DNA of 21,893 nucleotides from a virus. The stretch is from IMG/VR virus record IMGVR_UViG_3300040751_002909, positions 1 to 21,893 of that record; one strand, written 5' to 3'. The notes under the pieces were generated by a model. The model did not search any database and was not told the DNA's origin. It worked only from the letters and a program-made list of their open reading frames with translations. Shown here in pieces: positions 746 to 21,777 of this stretch (position 1 is the stretch's first letter; each line of letters opens with the position of its first letter). The position numbers and the translations under genes are program-made.

Positions 746-1255
746 TTACCAAGGGGCAACACCATTCCACTCTAGGAATGTATCGTAAAAAATTTTATAA
801 GCATCATCTGCCGTCTTGTGACAACCAAGATTCAGCGTTGGTAGCCCCTGTATATAAAACTTAACAAAATATGGGTTTTTCTTGTTTTTCTCCGGGCAAT
901 ACTGCACTCCTCTTTTTTCACCGACGAACCTTCTATATTTTTGCTTGTTTTCTTGACCAGTAACCCATTCAAGATTGTCCACCGAACAATTGCTTTTGTC
1001 GTGATCGATATGGTTGACTTCTTTTAGGTTTTTAGGGTTTTCTATCCACGCCCTTGCCACGCACCTATGGAGAGATACGTGACACCTTTTCCCAAGTGCG
1101 TTTCTAAGGTTTACGTAGATATAGCCGCTCCTGCAGTTTGCGACCCGTGAAAGCAACCTTGGCTTTTTAAGTCTAAAACTGTAAACATCACCCGACTTAG
1201 AAACCTTATATCCCGGATAGCCCGGTATGTTTTTTAGTTCTGGCAAATTAGACAT
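746..1255 (-). CDS. HNH homing endonuclease (NUMOD4 + HNH, AP2-like C-terminus)
   Basis: 169 aa. Residues about 5-55 fit a NUMOD4 DNA-binding motif (PGYPGYKVSKSGDVYS). Residues 79-99 hold the HNH core with EVNHIDHDKSN and DNLEWVT (H82, D84, H85, N94), as in free-standing phage homing endonucleases. Residues about 117-165 (GVQYCPEK, YFVKFYI, TADDAYKIF) resemble an AP2-type DNA-binding module. The ATG at 1253-1255 sits 8 bases inside the end of the endolysin gene and has AGGGTTAAGCG upstream, so insertion did not damage its neighbour. Such genes cut DNA at a specific site and spread by copying into cut alleles; they are selfish rather than structural. Its placement between endolysin and phosphoesterase suggests insertion into a gene junction. 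The family is certain; whether it is active cannot be seen. Confidence 0.9.
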   Translation of the reverse strand: MSNLPELKNIPGYPGYKVSKSGDVYSFRLKKPRLLSRVANCRSGYIYVNLRNALGKRCHVSLHRCVARAWIENPKNLKEVNHIDHDKSNCSVDNLEWVTGQENKQKYRRFVGEKRGVQYCPEKNKKNPYFVKFYIQGLPTLNLGCHKTADDAYKIFYDTFLEWNGVAPW

Positions 1256-7418: not shown

Positions 7419-7666
7419 TATTTAAACCTTTCTATTAAAAGCTCTCTCAAGCCCTTAATCTCTTCCTTAATTTCTCTTAGGTCACGCTGCAAAACCTTGT
7501 CTCTTTCAATCTCTTGAGTTTCTAGTTTTATCATGCGTGTCTTAAGCGTGTTAATCTCTGCGGAGACTTCTGAGACAATCCCGTAACCAACAGGGGCAAG
7601 CCCGACAATCATGGTGCCGAGTGCCGTTGCTGCTGTGGTTTTTTTGAGTTTGTCTTTTAAGTCCAT
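7418..7666 (-). CDS. TM plus coiled-coil protein, 82 aa (i-spanin- or XhlA-like)
   Basis: Residues about 11-31 (TAATALGTMIVGLAPVGYGIV) are hydrophobic enough for one TM helix after a charged start (MDLKDKLKK). Residues 33-82 form a strong coiled coil with heptads (INTLKTRMIKLETQEIERDK, then LREIKEEIKGLRELL). N-terminal anchor and periplasmic coiled coil match the layout of an i-spanin (Rz); XhlA-type proteins have the same parts in reverse order. Located between the signal-peptide adhesin and the hub, far from the endolysin, so a role in tail or membrane passage of DNA is also possible. TAATG junctions at both ends. Confidence 0.5.
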   Translation of the reverse strand: MDLKDKLKKTTAATALGTMIVGLAPVGYGIVSEVSAEINTLKTRMIKLETQEIERDKVLQRDLREIKEEIKGLRELLIERFK

Positions 7667-9966
7667 TAGCGTACCTTTGTTATTTTACATTGAGTATAGA
7701 CTTCATTTGTACCGTCATTTGTCGGAACACCTAGGCCGTTACCTGCTTGACCACTAGCCGTATATTGTTGGAGGTCAAATGTTTCCGATGCGTTGATATT
7801 AATTCTTCCATTTAAGATTGAATTAGTCTGTACATCTGTGGTTGTTGAGTTGTATGCGCTTAGGCCGATAATTAAGTCGGATGGTGTTCCTGTTGGGTCT
7901 TGTCTTAATTTTAACTTGTGTATGTTTGATTTATAAATAGGAGCATGACATTCTATATTATATGAGCCTGCCTCAAGAGTAAAATCATTAGACGCTAAAG
8001 ACAAGAAGGAGCAGTCACCTTCTGTAGTGTTTAAATCTCTGTTATTCCACGTAGTCGTTGTTGAACTCCCCGCAGCGACAGTTGTCGCCTTAACGTCCTT
8101 CACGTAACAAGTAGGCTGCCCAAATGTGCCGACAAAAAGCGACCTGTCACCATAATTACCTTTAATGGTTATACTGTGAATGGTGCTGTTGTTAAGAGTC
8201 ACACCTTGGTCTGACCTAAAAGAGAGAGTGTCTCCCTCATTAAGTTTTACCACGCCATCAAATTTTTTCTCAGCCGATGCAGGGCCAGTACCAAGAGGGA
8301 TACTCTGGACTCCGTTTATATAAGCATAGATATAAAAAGAACTATTTGACGTTATATCAACAACACCATGGACTTCATAAAAACCATACTTGGGTGCTGT
8401 AAAAACTGTACCATTCCAAGAGCCGCTTGTATCTTCGACCTCATTAGCGAAGTCAATATTAGTCGTGTTCGCAGTAATGGAAGTTCCTGCGTTTCCTGTC
8501 GCTCTAAGGTATGAACCTGTTAAACTATCGACAGCTGTTGTGTAAACCTTGTCGGTTTCTTTAATGTAGTCGGTGCCTTGTCTTTGGCAAACAACTTCAA
8601 AACCGCTATTACTCAAAGAACCCGAAGAGCAAATTGTTATTCTAGCGTCAAACTGACTGCTTGTTGATGCTGTGTTTTGAGTAGCACACCTTCCTGTTGT
8701 TGTTGGTTTTAGTACGCAGTTAGGTGCCTCGGAAAATAATCCTGCTTTTAGCGTACAGGTATATGGTGAGGTTGTTGTGCAGTTGCCGTCAATCCAGTCA
8801 ACATTTTCCTTTGTAACGTTGCCGCTACCGTCAACCTCGGCACTAAAAACATTCTCAACACTCGCTGAATCTGTGCGGTTTTTCACCACGACACCTTGAG
8901 AGGTGTTAGAAAGTTCGTTTACGGGAACGATTGCTTCTACTGAAAACTTGCTTGATGATCCAAATAGCACGTTGCCATCTAACCCCTCGGTAAAGCTATT
9001 ATTGGCTGATGGGTCAAGTCTTCTACCAGCTTGAAGAAAGTTGTCTCCGCCCACTCCAATAACCGAAAGGGTCTCATCTGATGCAACACTCTCCCTTTCA
9101 ATGTGTCCAAACCTTAAAACTTCTGTTGTGTCAGTTCCTTTGATTGTGTAACCGTTTGGTAACGGAATAGTAAAATCAGATGCAGCAACAGTTCCAGTTT
9201 GAACTTTAAGGCTTATAAAAACAGTATCACCAACTCTTTTCCATTTTGAGTGTAAAAGAGTGTCTGAGCCAATCCCTGTTATGTCTGGGCTATAGTCAGT
9301 CCACTCACTCGAAGCAAAAATATTCGTGGGACTTAAAGGGTCAGAAGCGAACTCGATGTCATCAATGATAAGCTCCGAATTCGCCGACTGAGCAAGCACG
9401 GAAATATCATAATCAATCGAAGCCTCGCCATCTGTTGAGAAGTAACCGCAATGCTTCTTGGCTGTGGTTGACGCTGGAATTGGAATCTCAACTAAGACCG
9501 ATGTAGAAGTGTTGCCGTACACCTGAAACGCCATGTCGTTATTGTTGCCGTTCCATTTAGCATTGAAGCATACCTCGATCAGATTCTTGGTTTGCTCTTT
9601 AGCTGCCAAGGTAATTGTAGGGCCTTCACATTTTACACCAACTGTCGGGGGCGTTGCGCCTTGGGTGAAACTTTTAGAAGTCCCATCAATTTCGTCTACT
9701 GTCTCATCCGCTGCGGTTAAGTTAGTTCCACAGGTAAAGGAAACACTAGCCCCCTCAAAGTCCTCTTGAAAGAAAACATCTTTAGGGCGATCATCGAGCC
9801 TTTTAGAGTCAAAAGTAATAACGTCATTTAGAACGCTGAGAATCTTTCCACTTCCAAAGATAAAGCCGTTTTGAAAGGTTTCAAGATAAGCCCCTGACGG
9901 CCATAGAACTGCCGCCATAACGGGGATAGAGATTGCTAGAATAAAACCAAGAATAAATCTTTTCAT
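7666..9966 (-). CDS. Cysteine-rich adhesin-like tail-cassette protein with Sec signal peptide, 766 aa
   Basis: Residues 1-19 form a classical Sec signal: MKR, then hydrophobic FILGFILAISIPV and MA before AV. Residues about 65-205 look like a carbohydrate-binding-type beta sandwich (EDFEGASVSFTCG; LIIDDIEF). Residues 218-275 (WTDYSPDITGIGSDTL; WKRVGDTVFISLKVQTG; PLPNGYTI) follow a motif common in phage tail-fibre modules. Residues 390-468 carry six cysteines. Residues 475-602 resemble a C1q/TNF-like jelly roll (YLRATGNAGTSITANTT; FTAPKYGFYEVHG; LNEGDTLSF), followed by a last beta domain. There are 14 cysteines, unusual for a cytoplasmically assembled virion protein. Likely a receptor-binding or surface adhesion protein; whether it is exported or in the virion is open. 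TAATG couplings at both ends. Confidence 0.65.
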   Translation of the reverse strand: MKRFILGFILAISIPVMAAVLWPSGAYLETFQNGFIFGSGKILSVLNDVITFDSKRLDDRPKDVFFQEDFEGASVSFTCGTNLTAADETVDEIDGTSKSFTQGATPPTVGVKCEGPTITLAAKEQTKNLIEVCFNAKWNGNNNDMAFQVYGNTSTSVLVEIPIPASTTAKKHCGYFSTDGEASIDYDISVLAQSANSELIIDDIEFASDPLSPTNIFASSEWTDYSPDITGIGSDTLLHSKWKRVGDTVFISLKVQTGTVAASDFTIPLPNGYTIKGTDTTEVLRFGHIERESVASDETLSVIGVGGDNFLQAGRRLDPSANNSFTEGLDGNVLFGSSSKFSVEAIVPVNELSNTSQGVVVKNRTDSASVENVFSAEVDGSGNVTKENVDWIDGNCTTTSPYTCTLKAGLFSEAPNCVLKPTTTGRCATQNTASTSSQFDARITICSSGSLSNSGFEVVCQRQGTDYIKETDKVYTTAVDSLTGSYLRATGNAGTSITANTTNIDFANEVEDTSGSWNGTVFTAPKYGFYEVHGVVDITSNSSFYIYAYINGVQSIPLGTGPASAEKKFDGVVKLNEGDTLSFRSDQGVTLNNSTIHSITIKGNYGDRSLFVGTFGQPTCYVKDVKATTVAAGSSTTTTWNNRDLNTTEGDCSFLSLASNDFTLEAGSYNIECHAPIYKSNIHKLKLRQDPTGTPSDLIIGLSAYNSTTTDVQTNSILNGRININASETFDLQQYTASGQAGNGLGVPTNDGTNEVYTQCKITKVR

Positions 9967-14682: not shown

Positions 14683-15111
14683 CTAGGCTCCTTGAAAGTC
14701 AAAATCTTTTCTGATTTGGAAAGTTAATAAAATTTTAAACACTTTGTCATTGGTTGGCAAAGGCTCTGGGGCAATCCCCAGAAAGATAATATCTGAAAAA
14801 GCATCTGAGTTTTTAACGAAAAGCGGGTCTAATACGGTGTTTTTCACATTGATAGCAAGATCGTAAATCTCATCGAAGTCTGAAAGCTCATTAAAGCCAG
14901 CTTTCTTATAAAGCTCAAGTGAGCAATCGACTAAATCAGTATGATAATTACCAACCGCCTCGGTGGATAATGTGGAAAATAGAAGTTTATAATGGCGATC
15001 AATTTGGCTTAAAGCCATGTCATCATCATTCCAAGGATCTTCAATTTCCTTATAATCGGCGTTACACTTTTGGATTTGCTGTCTTATGTACGCCCTACTT
15101 GCTGCAATCAT
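14683..15111 (-). CDS. Tail terminator / tail completion protein, 142 aa
   Basis: Sits between the connector and the tail tube, the usual place of the terminator (lambda U-like) gene. N-terminal helix (AASRAYIRQQIQKC), a central helical part (LVDCSLELYKKAGF, EIYDLAINVKN), then a strand pair ending KVFKILLTFQIRKDFDF typical of terminator folds. It would cap the tail tube and bind the head connector. ATG overlaps the connector stop (ATGA). The call is based mainly on position and size. Confidence 0.55.
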   Translation of the reverse strand: MIAASRAYIRQQIQKCNADYKEIEDPWNDDDMALSQIDRHYKLLFSTLSTEAVGNYHTDLVDCSLELYKKAGFNELSDFDEIYDLAINVKNTVLDPLFVKNSDAFSDIIFLGIAPEPLPTNDKVFKILLTFQIRKDFDFQGA

Positions 15112-15791
15112 CGGCGCACCATCCTAGAGGACATAAAATCGGGGCGAGTATCCACATTGCCATCCGCGTTTAAATCAAGTCTAAGAGTAGCCCTTGTTTT
15201 CTGGCGATCTGCCATATCCATATAACCCTTTGACTTAATCGAGTAAACGTCATCAACATCGCTTTGAACGCTTTTAAAAATAAGTGCTAATGCTAGGTAT
15301 TTTGACCACTCTTTTACTTCCTCGATATCGTAAATATCCGCTTTAACTAGCCTATTGCCTTGATTGTCAGTAAGCCCTCTTTGGTCTAGGTCATCGAGAA
15401 TCATCTTTTGTGCTATTCTGTGAAAGTCTAGGAATGTTGACCGCCCAGGTCTTAAAAAGCGGTAAATATCAACCTCGTGGGAGATTATATCTTTATCGTT
15501 AGAAAAGAGCTTATCATCTGAGGCGCTTAACACGCTTATTGTGACTTCTTTTGTCACGGGGGAACCGTCAGTTGTCACCCGAATAGTTGCCGTCTTATCG
15601 CCAGCAGTTGAATAAGACCAATCGAGATATTTATCGCTAGTCACATCAACAAACCCTGCCGATGCCTCTGGCTCAATCTCAAATAGAGTTATTGCTGCCT
15701 CGTCAGGACTAATAAAAGTCTTTGTGGCGTCTATTCTGGTTTTATCGTCAACCTGAACCTTTTCTTCTAATTGTGATTGTATAAAAATCAT
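15108..15791 (-). CDS. Head-tail connector (adaptor) protein, 227 aa
   Basis: Two parts: a small beta domain (about 20-90: EPEASAGFVDVTSDKYLDWS, VTKEVTISVLSA) and a helical domain (about 95-200) with FLDFHRIAQKMILDDL and KEWSKYLALALIFKSVQS, followed by a strand RATLRLDLNADGNVD. The helical part matches the pattern of phage gp6-like connectors (DFHR-AQ, EVKEWSKY), which stack under the portal. Its overlaps (ATGA) with the two-TM gene before and the tail terminator after agree with a head-tail joining role. It lacks any motif of catalysis. Confidence 0.62.
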   Translation of the reverse strand: MIFIQSQLEEKVQVDDKTRIDATKTFISPDEAAITLFEIEPEASAGFVDVTSDKYLDWSYSTAGDKTATIRVTTDGSPVTKEVTISVLSASDDKLFSNDKDIISHEVDIYRFLRPGRSTFLDFHRIAQKMILDDLDQRGLTDNQGNRLVKADIYDIEEVKEWSKYLALALIFKSVQSDVDDVYSIKSKGYMDMADRQKTRATLRLDLNADGNVDTRPDFMSSRMVRR

Positions 15792-15991
15792 TTCTTTTCC
15801 CTGTTAGAGATAACCCAAAATAGATGCCCCATTGCGAAGCCCATAAGAAACGTAAAGACAGGGTATTCGTAAGACCACTCTATTATTTGGTTAGATATCG
15901 AGGCGTCCGCACCTTCCCCTATGATTAGGTAGGTATCGAATCCGAGAATTGCCAACAAAACTATCCCTATAAATATTCCTGCCTTACTCAT
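15788..15991 (-). CDS. Two-TM mini membrane protein, 67 aa
   Basis: Residues 2-24 (KAGIFIGIVLLAILGFDTYL) and about 46-62 (FTFLMGFAMGHLFWVI) are TM helices with a short acidic loop between, and the tail is NREKK. The FTFLxGFxxGHLFW pattern I associate with small phage membrane proteins of unknown role. Two TM segments fit a class II holin, but the gene is in the head-tail junction region, not near the endolysin. Overlaps on both sides (ATGA) suggest co-translation with virion genes. Function is undetermined. Confidence 0.6.
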   Translation of the reverse strand: MSKAGIFIGIVLLAILGFDTYLIIGEGADASISNQIIEWSYEYPVFTFLMGFAMGHLFWVISNREKK

Positions 15992-16419
15992 GAAACAACC
16001 TCGTGATAAACTAAATTAAGTCCAATTTCTCTATCCTGACTTGAATCGTTTTTATATACAACAACTATCTGAAAACCTGCGTAAACATCAGCATCATAGT
16101 CCGACTTATCAGAATACAAAAGAGAGCTTACTACAACGTCAAATCCGAATTGATTAAGGTCGTAATTTGCTGGCATTCCGTATGCTGCTGCAACTGCTGG
16201 ATCAAGTGGTGATCTAACAATAAGATCAACTCGATCAAGAGCGTTTGCACCAACAACTTCTAGCTTGTTTATTTTTGCCTGCCCGTATGGTGCTGTGAAA
16301 ATTATCTCTTTCTCTGAGTTTGCTAGAACTGTTTCTTTAATTCCATGCTTTCTTCTAAAGAGTTTTTTACCACCATCGACAGTTTTTGGAGCGAACGGGC
16401 TTCTCGGTGTTACTTCCAT
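15988..16419 (-). CDS. Beta-rich virion decoration-type protein, 143 aa
   Basis: After a basic lead (SPFAPKTVDGGKKLFRRKHG), the sequence becomes beta-rich: EIIFTAPYGQAKINKLEV, DRVDLIVRSP, and AGFQIVVVYKNDSSQDREIG followed by LNLVYHEV. This order of strands resembles the C-terminal domain of the genes upstream (see findings). ATG directly follows the preceding TAA. No helices of note, no signal. Position between the capsid and connector genes suggests a capsid decoration or fibre subunit. Confidence 0.5.
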   Translation of the reverse strand: MEVTPRSPFAPKTVDGGKKLFRRKHGIKETVLANSEKEIIFTAPYGQAKINKLEVVGANALDRVDLIVRSPLDPAVAAAYGMPANYDLNQFGFDVVVSSLLYSDKSDYDADVYAGFQIVVVYKNDSSQDREIGLNLVYHEVVS

Positions 16420-17109
16420 TTATCCTACCTGTATTATTGATGCTTCATACTTCTTGTTGTTTTGACCTGGCAATGCCCTTGCGCTAATCACTATTGATGT
16501 TTGTGAGGCTACAGGGAAAGCAGGTGTGAAGTAGAAAACATCTAGGTTGTCATTCCAACTAATATAAGTGCTAGGAAGTGGCGATTGGTTCCAATCAAGC
16601 ATAAGCTTGAGCTGCTCACAGTCTATTTCAAATATAGTGACACCATCGATCTGTAGTCTTATCTCTACTTTCTTGTCACTGAACTTTACCTGAAAGCCTG
16701 AAATTTTTAGCGAACCTGTACTAGAGTAGATAGTAAAGTAAGTTGAATCATCTAGCTCCTGATCTTGATCGCTTGTCTGTAGAATTCTAAGATCAGAGCT
16801 TATTTCATTGCTAGACCTTACGAGAAGCTTCTTGCCTCCATTGTCTAAAACAACATCAGCTTGGTATGCTCCATCAGCACCCTGAATGACGGTCTTGATG
16901 GCATCATTGGTGCTGCCTACGGTTTCAAGTTCGCCACTGTTATCCTCTAGCCCTACTAGTTGAGTAAAGATGGGACTATCGACATTTGTCTCAACGCTTG
17001 CAACAACTTCAAGACCGTTCTTACCATTAGGCTTTAAACTAATCTCCGAGTTGTCACCTGTGACAGAATCTCTTAGCGATGTTTGACTAGGACTCTTTGA
17101 AATGCCCAT
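16420..17109 (-). CDS. Beta-rich virion decoration-type protein, 229 aa
   Basis: Begins with a polar tail (GISKSPSQTSLRDSVTGDNS) followed by two short beta units (NGLEVVASVETNVDSP; ADVVLDNGGKKLLVRSS) and a C-terminal beta sandwich (about 115-229: GSLKISGFQVKFSDKKVEIR; TSIVISARALPG). Leading polar segment then sandwich resembles capsid decoration or fibre proteins attached by an N-terminal arm. It is coupled by TAATG to the preceding gene and abuts the next. No family recognised. Confidence 0.5.
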   Translation of the reverse strand: MGISKSPSQTSLRDSVTGDNSEISLKPNGKNGLEVVASVETNVDSPIFTQLVGLEDNSGELETVGSTNDAIKTVIQGADGAYQADVVLDNGGKKLLVRSSNEISSDLRILQTSDQDQELDDSTYFTIYSSTGSLKISGFQVKFSDKKVEIRLQIDGVTIFEIDCEQLKLMLDWNQSPLPSTYISWNDNLDVFYFTPAFPVASQTSIVISARALPGQNNKKYEASIIQVG

Positions 17110-17504
17110 TAACTGAACTCCTGAATAGTGACTGAGGAAGTCCCATTGCTTGTCACCAAGTAGATGTTAATATTTTCCCCAATATCAAAACTTATTAGCT
17201 CGTCAGCTTGAATAGCAATGCCTGTCGTGCTACTAACACCTGTTGTTCCATAATAGATAACTCTATTACCTCTGTTAAAGATCACAAGAGTTTTTCTATT
17301 AGCAAGATTTGTTCCCGTAGCACTAGCAAGAATCTCAGTTGTCGACACTGTTATATTGGCATCAACAAAAGCAACATTGGCAAAATTAGAGGTTTTAATC
17401 TCACCCTCTGCCGTTACATTAACGTAGTTTGTTTCTGTTCCATCTGGAGTAGCGCCGACTAACTTAGTGCTACTCGCCGAATCTTTTGGACTTAAATCAG
17501 CCAT
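17109..17504 (-). CDS. Head decoration-type protein, 131 aa
   Basis: Residues 65-131 show a pattern shared by many small phage head proteins: NRKTLVIFNRGNRVIYYGTT, a turn, then AIQADELISFDIG and IYLVTSNGTSSVTIQEF. The first 40 residues are polar and repeat the start of the next gene upstream (MAD, SS, then VNVTAEGEIK echoing VNADGSI). Likely a small beta-barrel at the capsid surface. TAATG junctions at both ends. Confidence 0.55.
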   Translation of the reverse strand: MADLSPKDSASSTKLVGATPDGTETNYVNVTAEGEIKTSNFANVAFVDANITVSTTEILASATGTNLANRKTLVIFNRGNRVIYYGTTGVSSTTGIAIQADELISFDIGENINIYLVTSNGTSSVTIQEFS

Positions 17505-18358
17505 TAGACCTCAATACCTGTAAGGGTCGAGTATAAGTCTTGAGCTTGATTATCTCTATTTGTTAGAGTGATTCTAACAACCTCAGTTGCCCCCGCCTTA
17601 ACAATCTTGTCCATAGGAATATCAATATTAGGGTTTGATGTTGAGTTAAAAGCAACAAATACGATTGCGCCATCAACTAAAACCTGTGCTTTAAGTTTTC
17701 CTGAGCCTGATACCCATACGTTTTGACCAAGAAAGGTTTTTGCTGCTGTCACTGTATAGTCGTGATTAACACTAGCATCTTTCGCAACACTCGCACTTGT
17801 ATTAAAGTCAACAACCTCGTCGCCAAGCTGATCGCTTACCATTGTAACGGCAAGGGGGTTTGTTGCGCTAAAGGCAGTTCCGCCGTCGTCTCTTAAATTA
17901 ACAGATACAACATCAGTGGCAGTCAAGTCTCTAATGTCTAAATCGACAGCGTCAACAGTGATTGAGTTTCCACCGTCGGCAATGTTTACATCGTTTGTAA
18001 TTGAAGCAACAGTGCCGATGTTCCATGTCCCAGATTGGGTAGCAGCAACTGTTCCATCAACCGTTAGTGATCCGCCACCATCTTCTACAGTAACAACATC
18101 AGCATTAGTTAGTGCTCTAATGTCTAAGTCGGTTGCAGTTACAGCCGCATTTATCGAACCGTCTGCATTTACCGCAAGAGTGTCAGACCCGTCAGTAATC
18201 TCAACGGCTGTTCCGCTTGGTAAGCTTGTGTTTGTATCGATTGATCCATCAGCATTAACCTTAAGTTTTTGCGATGATGTCGTAGCGTCAGAAATAAAGA
18301 CATCAATGTCCCCTGCGGATTCTGTGCGCGCCGGAAGTGATGAGCTATAATCAGCCAT
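17504..18358 (-). CDS. Repeat-containing beta-rich decoration or fibre protein, 284 aa
   Basis: Contains a series of short beta repeats: KVNADGSI and AVNADGSI; DLDIRALTNADVVTVEDGGG and DLDIRDLTATDVVSVNLRDD; SLTVDGTVAATQSGTWNI and SITVDAVDLD. This type of repeat (DIRALTNADVVTV, SLTVDGTV, SGTWNI) recurs in phage structural proteins. Residues about 190-284 form a jelly-roll-like end (VNHDYTVTAAKTFLGQNVWV, KLKAQVLVDGAIVF, VRITLTNRDNQAQDLYSTL). The repeats could form a thin stalk and the end domain a knob. ATG overlaps the stop of the coiled-coil gene upstream by eight bases. Confidence 0.6.
   Translation of the reverse strand: MADYSSSLPARTESAGDIDVFISDATTSSQKLKVNADGSIDTNTSLPSGTAVEITDGSDTLAVNADGSINAAVTATDLDIRALTNADVVTVEDGGGSLTVDGTVAATQSGTWNIGTVASITNDVNIADGGNSITVDAVDLDIRDLTATDVVSVNLRDDGGTAFSATNPLAVTMVSDQLGDEVVDFNTSASVAKDASVNHDYTVTAAKTFLGQNVWVSGSGKLKAQVLVDGAIVFVAFNSTSNPNIDIPMDKIVKAGATEVVRITLTNRDNQAQDLYSTLTGIEV
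17928..18132 (-). repeat. Two copies of a coding repeat (about 62 codons apart)
   Basis: The DNA for DLDIR appears twice as GA(C/T)TTAGACATTAGAG (near 17931-17946 and 18115-18131), followed by diverged copies of xLTxxDVVxV. Copies are in the same frame and differ mainly at third positions at their starts. Confidence 0.55.
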
Positions 18359-18533
18359 TTTCTATCTCCATGATTTGAGCCGATAGCTCGTTAATTTTTT
18401 CTTCCTGAATTATTATGTCCTTCTCAAGCCTCTCAATATCGGCTTTTCTCTCCATAATTTTGAAGAGCATTTCACTTTTGGCTACATCAACCTTTTGCCG
18501 ATAAAGCTTAAGTTTCTCTAGTTCTATATTCAT
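18351..18533 (-). CDS. Short coiled-coil protein, 60 aa
   Basis: The entire product is helical and highly charged (MNIELEKLKLYRQKVDVAKS; KADIERLEKDIIIQEEKINE), with leucine/isoleucine heptads along residues 5-55: a dimer or trimer coiled coil. No partner recognised. ATGA overlap with the upstream gene and eight-base overlap with the downstream repeat protein suggest it is a virion accessory or assembly factor for the decoration cassette. Confidence 0.6.
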   Translation of the reverse strand: MNIELEKLKLYRQKVDVAKSEMLFKIMERKADIERLEKDIIIQEEKINELSAQIMEIENG

Positions 18534-18979
18534 GTTAGCTTTCCGTACAAATTAGCGTTAAAGTCTGAGGTTGTGGGCCTAAAGTTCTCGACCTCTATTT
18601 CTATAGTCTGCCCTGCGGTTGCTGTTATGTTATCAATGTTAAAGCTTGTGTTGTAGTTGGTAAAATACGTTCTCACTTTATCAAAAACAACCGAGTCAAT
18701 GAGTAGCGTATAGACGGCTATATTTTCTCCGCTTACATTTACACCATTGATTGTTAACGACTGCCCCGTTGGTATTGTGTACGTCAACACAGTTGCGCTT
18801 GCTGCCGAAGCAACACTGTTAACTTCGTTGAATTGATAAAAGTCGCTTCCATTTTCTTCAATGAAAACTGGAATACTTGAGCCAGACTCTTGCTCAACCG
18901 AAACGGCAACTGAAACCTTATTAAGGCTAGGTTCTCTGAACTTTTGTTGCTCTCTATCCTGTCTAGCCTTCGGAAGCAT
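18530..18979 (-). CDS. Beta-rich decoration-type protein, 149 aa
   Basis: N-terminal 45 residues polar and basic (PKARQDREQQKFREPSLNK), then a beta sandwich: TVLTYTIPTGQSLTINGVNV, AVYTLLIDSVVFDKVRTYF, TAGQTIEIEVENFRPTTSDF, ending NANLYGKL. Strand order matches the end domain of the 284-aa gene downstream (TYTIP / DYTV; LTINGVNVSG / LGQNVWVSG; IEIEVEN / VRITLTN). GAGGAA lies eight bases before the ATG at 18977-18979, which is 17 bases inside the upstream gene. Likely capsid surface protein; inferred. Confidence 0.55.
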   Translation of the reverse strand: MLPKARQDREQQKFREPSLNKVSVAVSVEQESGSSIPVFIEENGSDFYQFNEVNSVASAASATVLTYTIPTGQSLTINGVNVSGENIAVYTLLIDSVVFDKVRTYFTNYNTSFNIDNITATAGQTIEIEVENFRPTTSDFNANLYGKLT

Positions 18980-19209: not shown

Positions 19210-20055
19210 TTAGTTAGTTGAGTCAACTTTTACACAACGCTTACCACCATCTAGCACCTCAGCGCCAAAGATGTAATCGAGTGAGTATCTCATCCCAATA
19301 TTAGCAAGGTCTTTGTCAAAGTCTAGCTCGATTGGTTGAGAGAAAGCATAACCAACAGCAGATGGGTGCCATGCAACCATGTAATCGCTAATTGATGTAT
19401 GAACTAGAACTCTCATCCCGTAAACCATACCGATCTCACCAAGCATAACTGGTGAAGCAGATCCGTATTTAGAAGCATCAACAAATCCCTCAATCGCAAG
19501 CATTTCAGCTTCTTTCTCAGAACCAACAGCTAGGAAACACTCTCTAGGGTTGATGTTCTGATCGATAAGAAGTTTGCGAGCAGCAAGGATATCGCCTTTA
19601 GCAAGAACGTCATTAACTGTATCAGCAAAAACGATTTGATGATCTGGAGCAGATGCAGAGCCTAGATTGATTTCAGCAAGAATTTTCTCATCGATATCAA
19701 GAGCAAGCGCCTTAGTAGCTTTCATAACAGCATCGCTAACAACGTCAACAACTGATTGACGAGCAGCAAGTTTCTCAATTAAGAACTGAACAGTTCTATG
19801 AGAAAAAGTGATCGTATCGCTAGCATAGGTAATTACCTGCGCATCCGCCGAAACATTTTCCTGCTTGTCCTGAACAGTAAAGCCCCCAGAGCGTGGTAGC
19901 TTAATGCTAGAAGCACCTGGAACAGCTAGGTTAGAGTAGTCTGTACAAGTTGGTAACAGTACAGATTCTTGAATAAGAAAAGATTGTGCCATTGCAGCGA
20001 CATTCGCTAGTGCTGCGGCTGAGGTTTCCGTAACCCCCATTAATGCGTCAGCCAT
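19210..20055 (-). CDS. Major capsid protein (HK97-fold type), 281 aa
   Basis: Directly follows the scaffold and precedes a terminator, and has the best ribosome binding site nearby (AAGGGAG, seven bases before ATG). Recognisable pattern: a loop region with SSIKLPRSGGFTVQDKQENV (about 50-70), a helix KALALDIDEKILAEI (spine-like), and an A-domain with NPRECFLAVGSEKEAEMLAI, MVYGMRVLVH and YMVAWHPSAVGYAFSQPIEL then YSLDYIFGAEVLDGGKR. Such features fit HK97-type capsid proteins of about 280-300 aa. Four cysteines (CTDYSN, ECFL, RCVKV region). The N-terminal 25 residues are too short for a delta domain like HK97, so a separate scaffold is expected and is present. Confidence 0.85.
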   Translation of the reverse strand: MADALMGVTETSAAALANVAAMAQSFLIQESVLLPTCTDYSNLAVPGASSIKLPRSGGFTVQDKQENVSADAQVITYASDTITFSHRTVQFLIEKLAARQSVVDVVSDAVMKATKALALDIDEKILAEINLGSASAPDHQIVFADTVNDVLAKGDILAARKLLIDQNINPRECFLAVGSEKEAEMLAIEGFVDASKYGSASPVMLGEIGMVYGMRVLVHTSISDYMVAWHPSAVGYAFSQPIELDFDKDLANIGMRYSLDYIFGAEVLDGGKRCVKVDSTN

Positions 20056-21212: not shown

Positions 21213-21777
21213 TAAATATCTGCCCTAAGATTGCATCAATATTAATCTCGACTTGATTGCCAAAAACCTCACCAATTAACTCGGGAGTTGCTAACCCTTG
21301 CAAAACAGGCTCGCTTTCCACAACTCTAACCTGCTCTGCAATATCTCTGGCTTCATCTTTGGTTATTCCGAAAAAATCTCTCTGATAATCTTTTTTGTTG
21401 TAACCTTTTGCCTTGGATATAATTGAGTGTTTTTCAAATCCAGTTATATGACCATGCGCCTTTGCCGCCTGTTTGTCGTCATCAATAAAAATCTCAACAC
21501 CATTTTCCGTAGTTCTATAGTCAATAGAGTTAAGCATATCCCCAAAAAGAGTAAGATCAACGCTATTGCGTGAGACACCTTTGAACTCTGCATAATCAGC
21601 TTTGTAAGCAGGGAACCCCTGTCCATCAAAGTCTTTACCTGACTGAGTGCGGTCAATAATAAGATCGCGCGCAAGCTCGGCGAACTCGCGCTTTTCAAAG
21701 GCGGTTGGTCTGCGTCCATAAATCTCCCTTAGATTAATGGAAAGACTAACCCTATTCTCCGATAGTCTCCGTTCCAT
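21199..21777 (-). CDS. Virion morphogenesis (gpG/gp10)-like neck protein, 192 aa
   Basis: Contains DFDGQGFPAYKADYAEFKG then SVDLTLFGDMLNSIDYRTTE and GVEIFIDDD, the typical order of phage virion morphogenesis proteins (G-x-x-F-x-x-Y...DLTLTGDML-S strand). Then FEKHSIISKAKG and YQRDFFGITKDEARDIAEQV as C-terminal helix. In Mu-like head operons gpG lies between the portal and the protease/scaffold; the same place here. ATG at 21775-21777 lies 26 bases inside the portal-like gene; AGGG upstream. Role: neck assembly or tail joining. Confidence 0.65.
   Translation of the reverse strand: MERRLSENRVSLSINLREIYGRRPTAFEKREFAELARDLIIDRTQSGKDFDGQGFPAYKADYAEFKGVSRNSVDLTLFGDMLNSIDYRTTENGVEIFIDDDKQAAKAHGHITGFEKHSIISKAKGYNKKDYQRDFFGITKDEARDIAEQVRVVESEPVLQGLATPELIGEVFGNQVEINIDAILGQIFNGET

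Follow-up and report, generated by a model that had tools for sequence, protein, structure and literature searches.

A paired jelly-roll module downstream of the capsid gene of an uncultured virus: a candidate portable virion appendage

The window analysed here is a virus record of 21,893 bases (IMG/VR record IMGVR_UViG_3300040751_002909), a linear fragment whose main genes, from position 21777 down to 13519, form a tight minus-strand block that runs from capsid-side genes and the capsid protein through a cassette of genes to connector- and tail-like genes. The subject of this report is that cassette, and above all a pair of genes, called A and B, together with the small gene that lies between them. 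The major capsid protein (19210-20055, minus strand; 281 amino acids; PHROG 267, E 7.7e-19; Pfam Phage_capsid_4) precedes the cassette and is followed by one small gene and then by gene A. Gene A (18530-18979, on the minus strand like all the cassette genes; 149 amino acids) carries an N-terminal tail (codons at 18842-18979) and a jelly-roll domain (18533-18841) of a family common to A and B. Next come a small helix-prone gene of 60 codons with a heptad pattern (18351-18533) and gene B (17504-18358; 284 amino acids), composed of a conserved N-terminus (18215-18358), a variable beta-repeat stem (17828-18214) and a C-terminal jelly roll (17507-17827). Further along lie a beta-rich protein of 131 amino acids (17109-17504), gene P2 (16420-17109; 229 amino acids), whose residues 60-105 match an N-terminal module of its relatives and whose C-terminal domain (16423-16794) is a putative jelly roll, and gene P1 (15988-16419; 143 amino acids), predicted to form a single jelly roll over residues 19-142. 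The initial annotation had read A, B, P2 and P1 as four genes with differing N-termini and a common end-domain, derived by duplication of a surface module. The four open reading frames are indeed found there, all on the minus strand, and their N-termini do differ.

The shared end-domain is certain for two of these four genes. The C-terminal ~105 residues of A and of B form one family: iterative profiles started from either C-terminal domain each recover the other, at E-values of 1e-26 to 1e-35, and profiles built from disjoint members (30 B-type and 29 A-type, with 6 set aside) align in hhalign over 108 columns with a probability of 99.6% (E 1.7e-23). The window's own A and B domains share 27% identity across 96 residues, and the profile of the A/B alignment (A6) gives two matches there, A at 2.4e-34 and B at 2.2e-41. 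The end pattern reads TYTIP, VSG, DSVVF, VENF and LYGKL in A and DYTVT, VSG, DGAIVF, LTN and LYSTL in B; in P1 it is EIIFTAP...LVYHEV.

Neither P1 nor P2 is matched by the A6 profile. Some weight is lent to the view that all four end-domains are true paralogues, produced by repeated local duplication, by the comparison of profiles with 105 nulls, i.e., profile windows taken from other, unrelated protein families in these loci: against A+B, the P1 profile scores above 104 of them and the P2 C-terminal profile above all 105, the latter in both directions. The corresponding probabilities nevertheless stay between 2 and 25% (2.7% and 1.8% for P1; 25% and 12% for P2, over about 40 columns), the P1 and P2 profiles resemble each other at the level of chance, and the A+B profile scores higher with two other protein families from these loci (background 37 and 14) than with the P2 families, so that the signal is not specific. 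Although P1 and B also share strand order and similar strand lengths, jelly rolls can converge, and common paralogy of all four appears doubtful. P1 has the same predicted fold as the A/B domain, P2 fits the end pattern loosely, the kinship of the P2 C-terminal domain to A/B is only suggestive, and P1 and P2 may be either independent jelly rolls or very remote kin of A/B. The 131-residue protein was considered as a further copy and rejected, its profile giving no link to A+B.

Structures were modelled with AlphaFold2 for B, from an alignment of 47 rows, and for P1, from 19 rows. In the B model, the predicted local distance difference test (pLDDT) averages 93-98 per block from residue 181 on and 46-91, mostly below 75, in earlier blocks, the stem and the N-terminus being modelled at low confidence. 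The P1 model has a mean pLDDT of 88.5 and a predicted template modelling score of 0.80. Strands are placed at residues 180-191, 196-202, 209-218, 222-228, 231-237, 244-248, 260-267 and 273-283 in B and at 19-31, 35-42, 48-56, 63-69, 87-96, 101-105, 117-124 and 130-142 in P1, giving lengths of 12, 7, 10, 7, 7, 5, 8 and 11 residues in B and 13, 8, 9, 7, 10, 5, 8 and 13 in P1. Judged from this order and these lengths, the two models share the same succession of eight strands, and most loops are of like length, apart from the one joining strands 4 and 5, where P1 has an insertion of ~15 residues. The B domain and, with high confidence, P1 are thus predicted to be eight-strand jelly rolls that match solved jelly rolls, and by its homology to B a jelly roll is predicted for A as well.

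Fold matches were obtained with VIA-align and are given among the 50 matches listed. Those from virus particles include the HFTV1 turret chain 8qpg_TD (B: Z 9.9, 96 residues aligned, 2.4 Å; P1: Z 9.2, 109 aligned, 3.3 Å), the trimeric cement protein of KHP40, 7dou_4 (B: Z 9.0, 103 aligned, 3.0 Å; P1: Z 8.5, 111 aligned, 4.0 Å), the cyanophage Pam1 capsid chain 7eel_H (P1: Z 8.0, 116 aligned, 5.2 Å), the STIV turret 4ind (P1: Z 8.9) and the coat protein of faba bean necrotic stunt virus, 6s44 (B: Z 10.9; P1: Z 9.7). The Klebsiella phage baseplate-cup chain 9f4b_F2 (B: Z 10.2; P1: Z 9.2) and the GOLD domain of TMED1, 7rrm (B: Z 10.7; P1: Z 9.4), are matched too, and tail-fibre and baseplate chains occur under 9rkv and 9f4b. 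Folds of the BPP-1 cement protein or lambda gpD type are absent from the 50 matches listed, which excludes nothing. A fold search of BFVD matched many uncharacterised phage proteins, none of them decisive.

The pairing of A with B is widespread. The A/B domain profile was run over 20 records, that of the window and 19 others, including two pairs of near copies: 15 records have two matches, 2 have none, and 3 have an additional third match, which lies antisense within B in two of them and is weak in the other (E 1.7e-6). Among 86 overlapping locus sequences, designated below by L numbers, 33 A-B pairs are counted once identical A proteins have been removed, with at least one near-copy left (L038/L039), and A is always upstream of B on the same strand. 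An open reading frame of 53-97 codons separates A from B in 32 of the 33 pairs (the exception is L056); the 60-codon gene at 18351-18533, one of the small genes that the initial annotation had placed between the decoration-like ones, is therefore part of a conserved unit. In the loci with a single member (L001, L053, L070, L074), the sequence ends inside or beside the pair. Since most loci were collected by their likeness to B, A and the small gene were for the most part not selected for. The same three genes occur in LR756511, a 595-kb uncultured phage (L083, 6806-8318), with minus-strand genes flanking them on both sides. This copy of the module stands alone beside a virion structural gene (phrog_1645), a family that also weakly matches the part preceding the A domain in L073.

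The intervening genes are less uniform than the pair that they separate. The family of the window's small gene comprises proteins of 53-81 residues, and for most of the intervening open reading frames of 76-97 codons no sequence join to that family was found (L055, E 0.0036; L085, 0.19). The heptad signal of the window's small protein is reached by 11 of 2000 shuffles in one run and by 1 of 500 in a second. Twelve members of its family were tested, and for none of them do more than 17 of 500 shuffles reach the observed value; for the 13 other small proteins tested, 26 to 493 of 500 do; a coiled-coil pattern is therefore claimed only for the window's small-gene family.

One branch, with a support of 98/83, parts all A from all B in a tree built from the 31 A and 31 B domains of 31 loci (62 domains), and the split recurs in 98% of the 200 bootstrap replicates; the tree is based on only 108 usable columns, and the branch of the L056 A domain is very long. 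The simplest reading is that A and B would stem from one old duplication, which preceded the divergence of these phages and is common to all 31 sampled loci, that of the 595-kb phage among them. The duplication first proposed thus holds for the A/B pair, carried by a single well-supported branch, and not as a local series of four copies.

Descent of the pair appears uncoupled from that of the capsid. Across the 66 pairs formed by 12 phages of the capsid-267 lineage, identity averages 33.5% for the capsid protein, 39.3% for A and 59.2% for B, and Spearman's correlation is 0.62 between A and B, 0.19 between capsid and B, and -0.02 between capsid and A; on this last value, a role of A as the dedicated base of the capsid protein was rejected. 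L002, the nearest capsid relative found, is identical to the window at 84% of positions in the capsid protein, 62% in the connector-like and 74% in the tube-like protein, and has no counterpart of the small gene, B, P2 or P1. It has instead a protein of 91 residues with only the N-terminal motif of A, plus proteins of 59, 133 and 538 residues, the longest of which matches tail-fibre families. The N-terminal motif of A is kept without the jelly roll in L002 and L004; since L080, whose capsid protein is 29% identical, retains this motif as well, it is no marker of capsid binding. In L033, B is 76% identical while the capsid protein is 32% identical, and in L028, for which that search gave no capsid match, B, P2 and P1 are 63%, 53% and 66% identical. 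Where a capsid gene was located near the module, at least four families are represented: it falls into PHROG 267 in the window, L079 and L080, into PHROG 371 in L024, L028 and L049, into PHROG 1357 in L047, L052 and L058, and into PHROG 10 in L031 and L054; no capsid gene was identified among the genes scanned in L055, L059, L064, L066 and L083.

Exchange is also visible inside the island and inside its proteins. The interval between the capsid gene and the connector-like gene (15108-15791, minus strand; so called from its position and a reading of its sequence, with no family match) holds, in capsid relatives, a lectin-like Laminin_G_3 protein (L016, 8023-9162) or a protein with YadA head repeats (L007, 9975-11783), and looks like a general slot for surface proteins. 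The island of L036, L038 and L039 contains a collagen-like protein of 369-370 residues with matches to tail-fibre families (L039, 4574-5680). The N-terminal ~45 residues of the 131-residue protein are shared with proteins bearing other C-terminal domains, recurring in relatives before P2-type domains and before unrelated proteins of ~205 residues. In L073 and L057, the A/B domain stands behind a part of ~250 residues, which in L073 matches a virion structural family (E 5.6e-5). In B, conservation is seen over the first 36 residues and the jelly roll, and residues 49-132 vary in sequence and in length, seemingly as a stem would.

Capsid-bound accessory proteins commonly serve to stabilise the capsid and to adhere to the host (PMC7602432). 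For phage 7-7-1, the head-fibre proteins and their functions are described as unknown (PMC12796354). A close parallel is the HFTV1 turret, a two-gene capsid appendage in which a base hexamer and a head trimer sit on capsid hexamers (PMC12494034). The small 8QPG chain TD, read from its length of 114 residues as the turret base protein, is matched nearly whole by the B domain and by P1. The HFTV1 head protein differs in having galactose-binding-like and deacetylase-like domains, and the sections consulted describe no jelly-roll paralogue of the base and mention no small helical third gene such as the A-B unit contains (PMC12494034). Neither of these head domains gave a Pfam match in the island genes scanned, in a cassette where the stem and N-terminus of B are modelled at low confidence. 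In BPP-1, the cement protein Bbp16 is a single eight-strand jelly roll of ~140 residues on an HK97-type capsid (PMC3863775); it differs from A/B as one gene forming a stabilising dimer. The head fibres of phi29 (gp8.5) and the spikes of SPP1 (gp12) are likewise capsid-bound accessory proteins of adhesion type (PMC7602432), with coiled-coil or collagen-like shafts and folds unlike those of A/B. The KHP40 (7DOU) and Pam1 (7EEL_H) proteins match in fold, but at 4-10% identity in the aligned parts. No pairing of the A/B type is known to us in KHP40 or Pam1.

Searches by sequence returned little. Profile searches of the PDB with the P1, P2 and A alignments gave no cement protein of the BPP-1, KHP40 or Pam1 type up to E 10, and no credible PDB match was obtained by sequence, the best being a BolA-like protein at E 0.019. 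PHROGs and Pfam hold no family for A, B, P1 or P2, and PHROGs none for any member of the P1, A and P2 alignments. In tblastn against 50,697 phage records, A, P1 and P2 had no match, B matched a single jumbo metagenomic phage and the capsid protein a single Thermobifida phage; the genome collection searched gave no relative of B or of the capsid protein. BLAST values calculated within a set of 16 proteins, with composition correction absent, carry no weight here. Full-text searches of open-licence papers listed no title or abstract opening that describes a module composed of A, a small gene and B. Jelly-roll decoration of HK97-type capsids is thus known, and the paired module is undescribed in PHROGs, Pfam and the literature searched.

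Altogether, we lean towards a model in which A, the 60-residue protein and B form a portable module, derived from one old duplication, whose products would assemble into an appendage of the virion surface, most probably a turret or a short head fibre borne by the capsid. A, anchored through its N-terminal tail, would be the base; B would be the projecting fibre, with its conserved N-terminus, a beta-repeat stem of variable length and a C-terminal jelly-roll knob; the small helical protein would join the two or help to assemble both; and P1, P2 and the 131-residue protein could be further swappable surface knobs of the island. More tentatively, the three genes might constitute a self-contained, horizontally mobile kit of base, clamp and fibre that serves tailed phages of unrelated capsid families, of up to 595 kb, with the three-gene order kept ever since a single ancient duplication. 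Knobs or fibres on the surface, as the initial annotation had suggested, are plausible given the position after the capsid gene and the lectin-, YadA-head- and tail-fibre-like proteins that fill this slot in relatives. Placement on the capsid is favoured by gene order and by the known examples of HFTV1 and BPP-1, and adhesion by the exchange of the module between unrelated capsids and its absence from the nearest capsid relative; location on the virion, stoichiometry, binding partners and an adhesive role are what we infer.

Several observations weigh against this model. A simple capsid-binding base might be expected to diverge in step with the capsid protein, which A does not do. The four neighbours scanned within 16 kb of LR756511 include a helicase and a virion structural protein and no capsid gene. 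The jelly-roll fold is common, with GOLD domains, satellite-virus capsids and toxins giving equal or better fold matches, and for this reason the fold is evidence neither of a function nor, in the case of P1, of homology. In L054 (5220-6032), the A domain is fused behind a weak match to a tail terminator (phrog_347, E 0.005), and in L055 (2473-4534) and L059 (1049-4423) the upstream genes match families of very large virion structural and baseplate-wedge proteins.

Two other assignments deserve weighing beside the capsid appendage. A and P1, which are alike in length and place, could be cement proteins that lock capsomers in the manner of BPP-1 Bbp16, B being only an added fibre and adhesion not the main role; the fold match to the KHP40 cement protein would fit, but the divergence of A and B is independent of that of the capsid protein, the nearest capsid relative does without the island as it could hardly do without an essential cement, and B has a variable stem, all of which make this reading unlikely. 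The spot just downstream of the capsid gene is the usual place of capsid accessory genes. Least probable is an appendage of neck or tail, such as whiskers or fibres on the baseplate or where head and tail join, which keeps a share of the probability because of L054, L055 and L059 and is also consistent with the adjoining connector-like genes and with the fold matches to 9rkv and 9f4b, yet is at odds with the start of the module, which in the 12 loci compared of the capsid-267 lineage follows the capsid gene after one or two small genes.

Phage capsid decoration is usually described phage by phage. A pair that is both conserved and portable would account for a class of genes, so far unnamed, that lie downstream of capsid genes in uncultured phages, would serve as a sequence marker for capsid appendages, and yields a testable claim on how parts for surface adhesion pass from one capsid to another, unrelated one. 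Use as a modular scaffold for display is a further possibility.

Other features of the window lie outside the pair. The cassette ends with a protein of 67 amino acids (15788-15991, minus strand), hydrophobic by eye and kept in several relatives, with 10 matches among open reading frames, two of which are the window itself; flanked by the last knob gene on one side and the connector-like gene on the other, it occupies an odd site for a membrane-like protein. A protein of 766 residues (7666-9966, minus strand) has a C-terminal tail-fibre match and an N-terminus that by eye resembles a signal peptide, an unusual feature in a structural protein of a phage. A gene for an HNH endonuclease (746-1255, minus strand; phrog_59, E 1.9e-32) lies downstream of the structural block.

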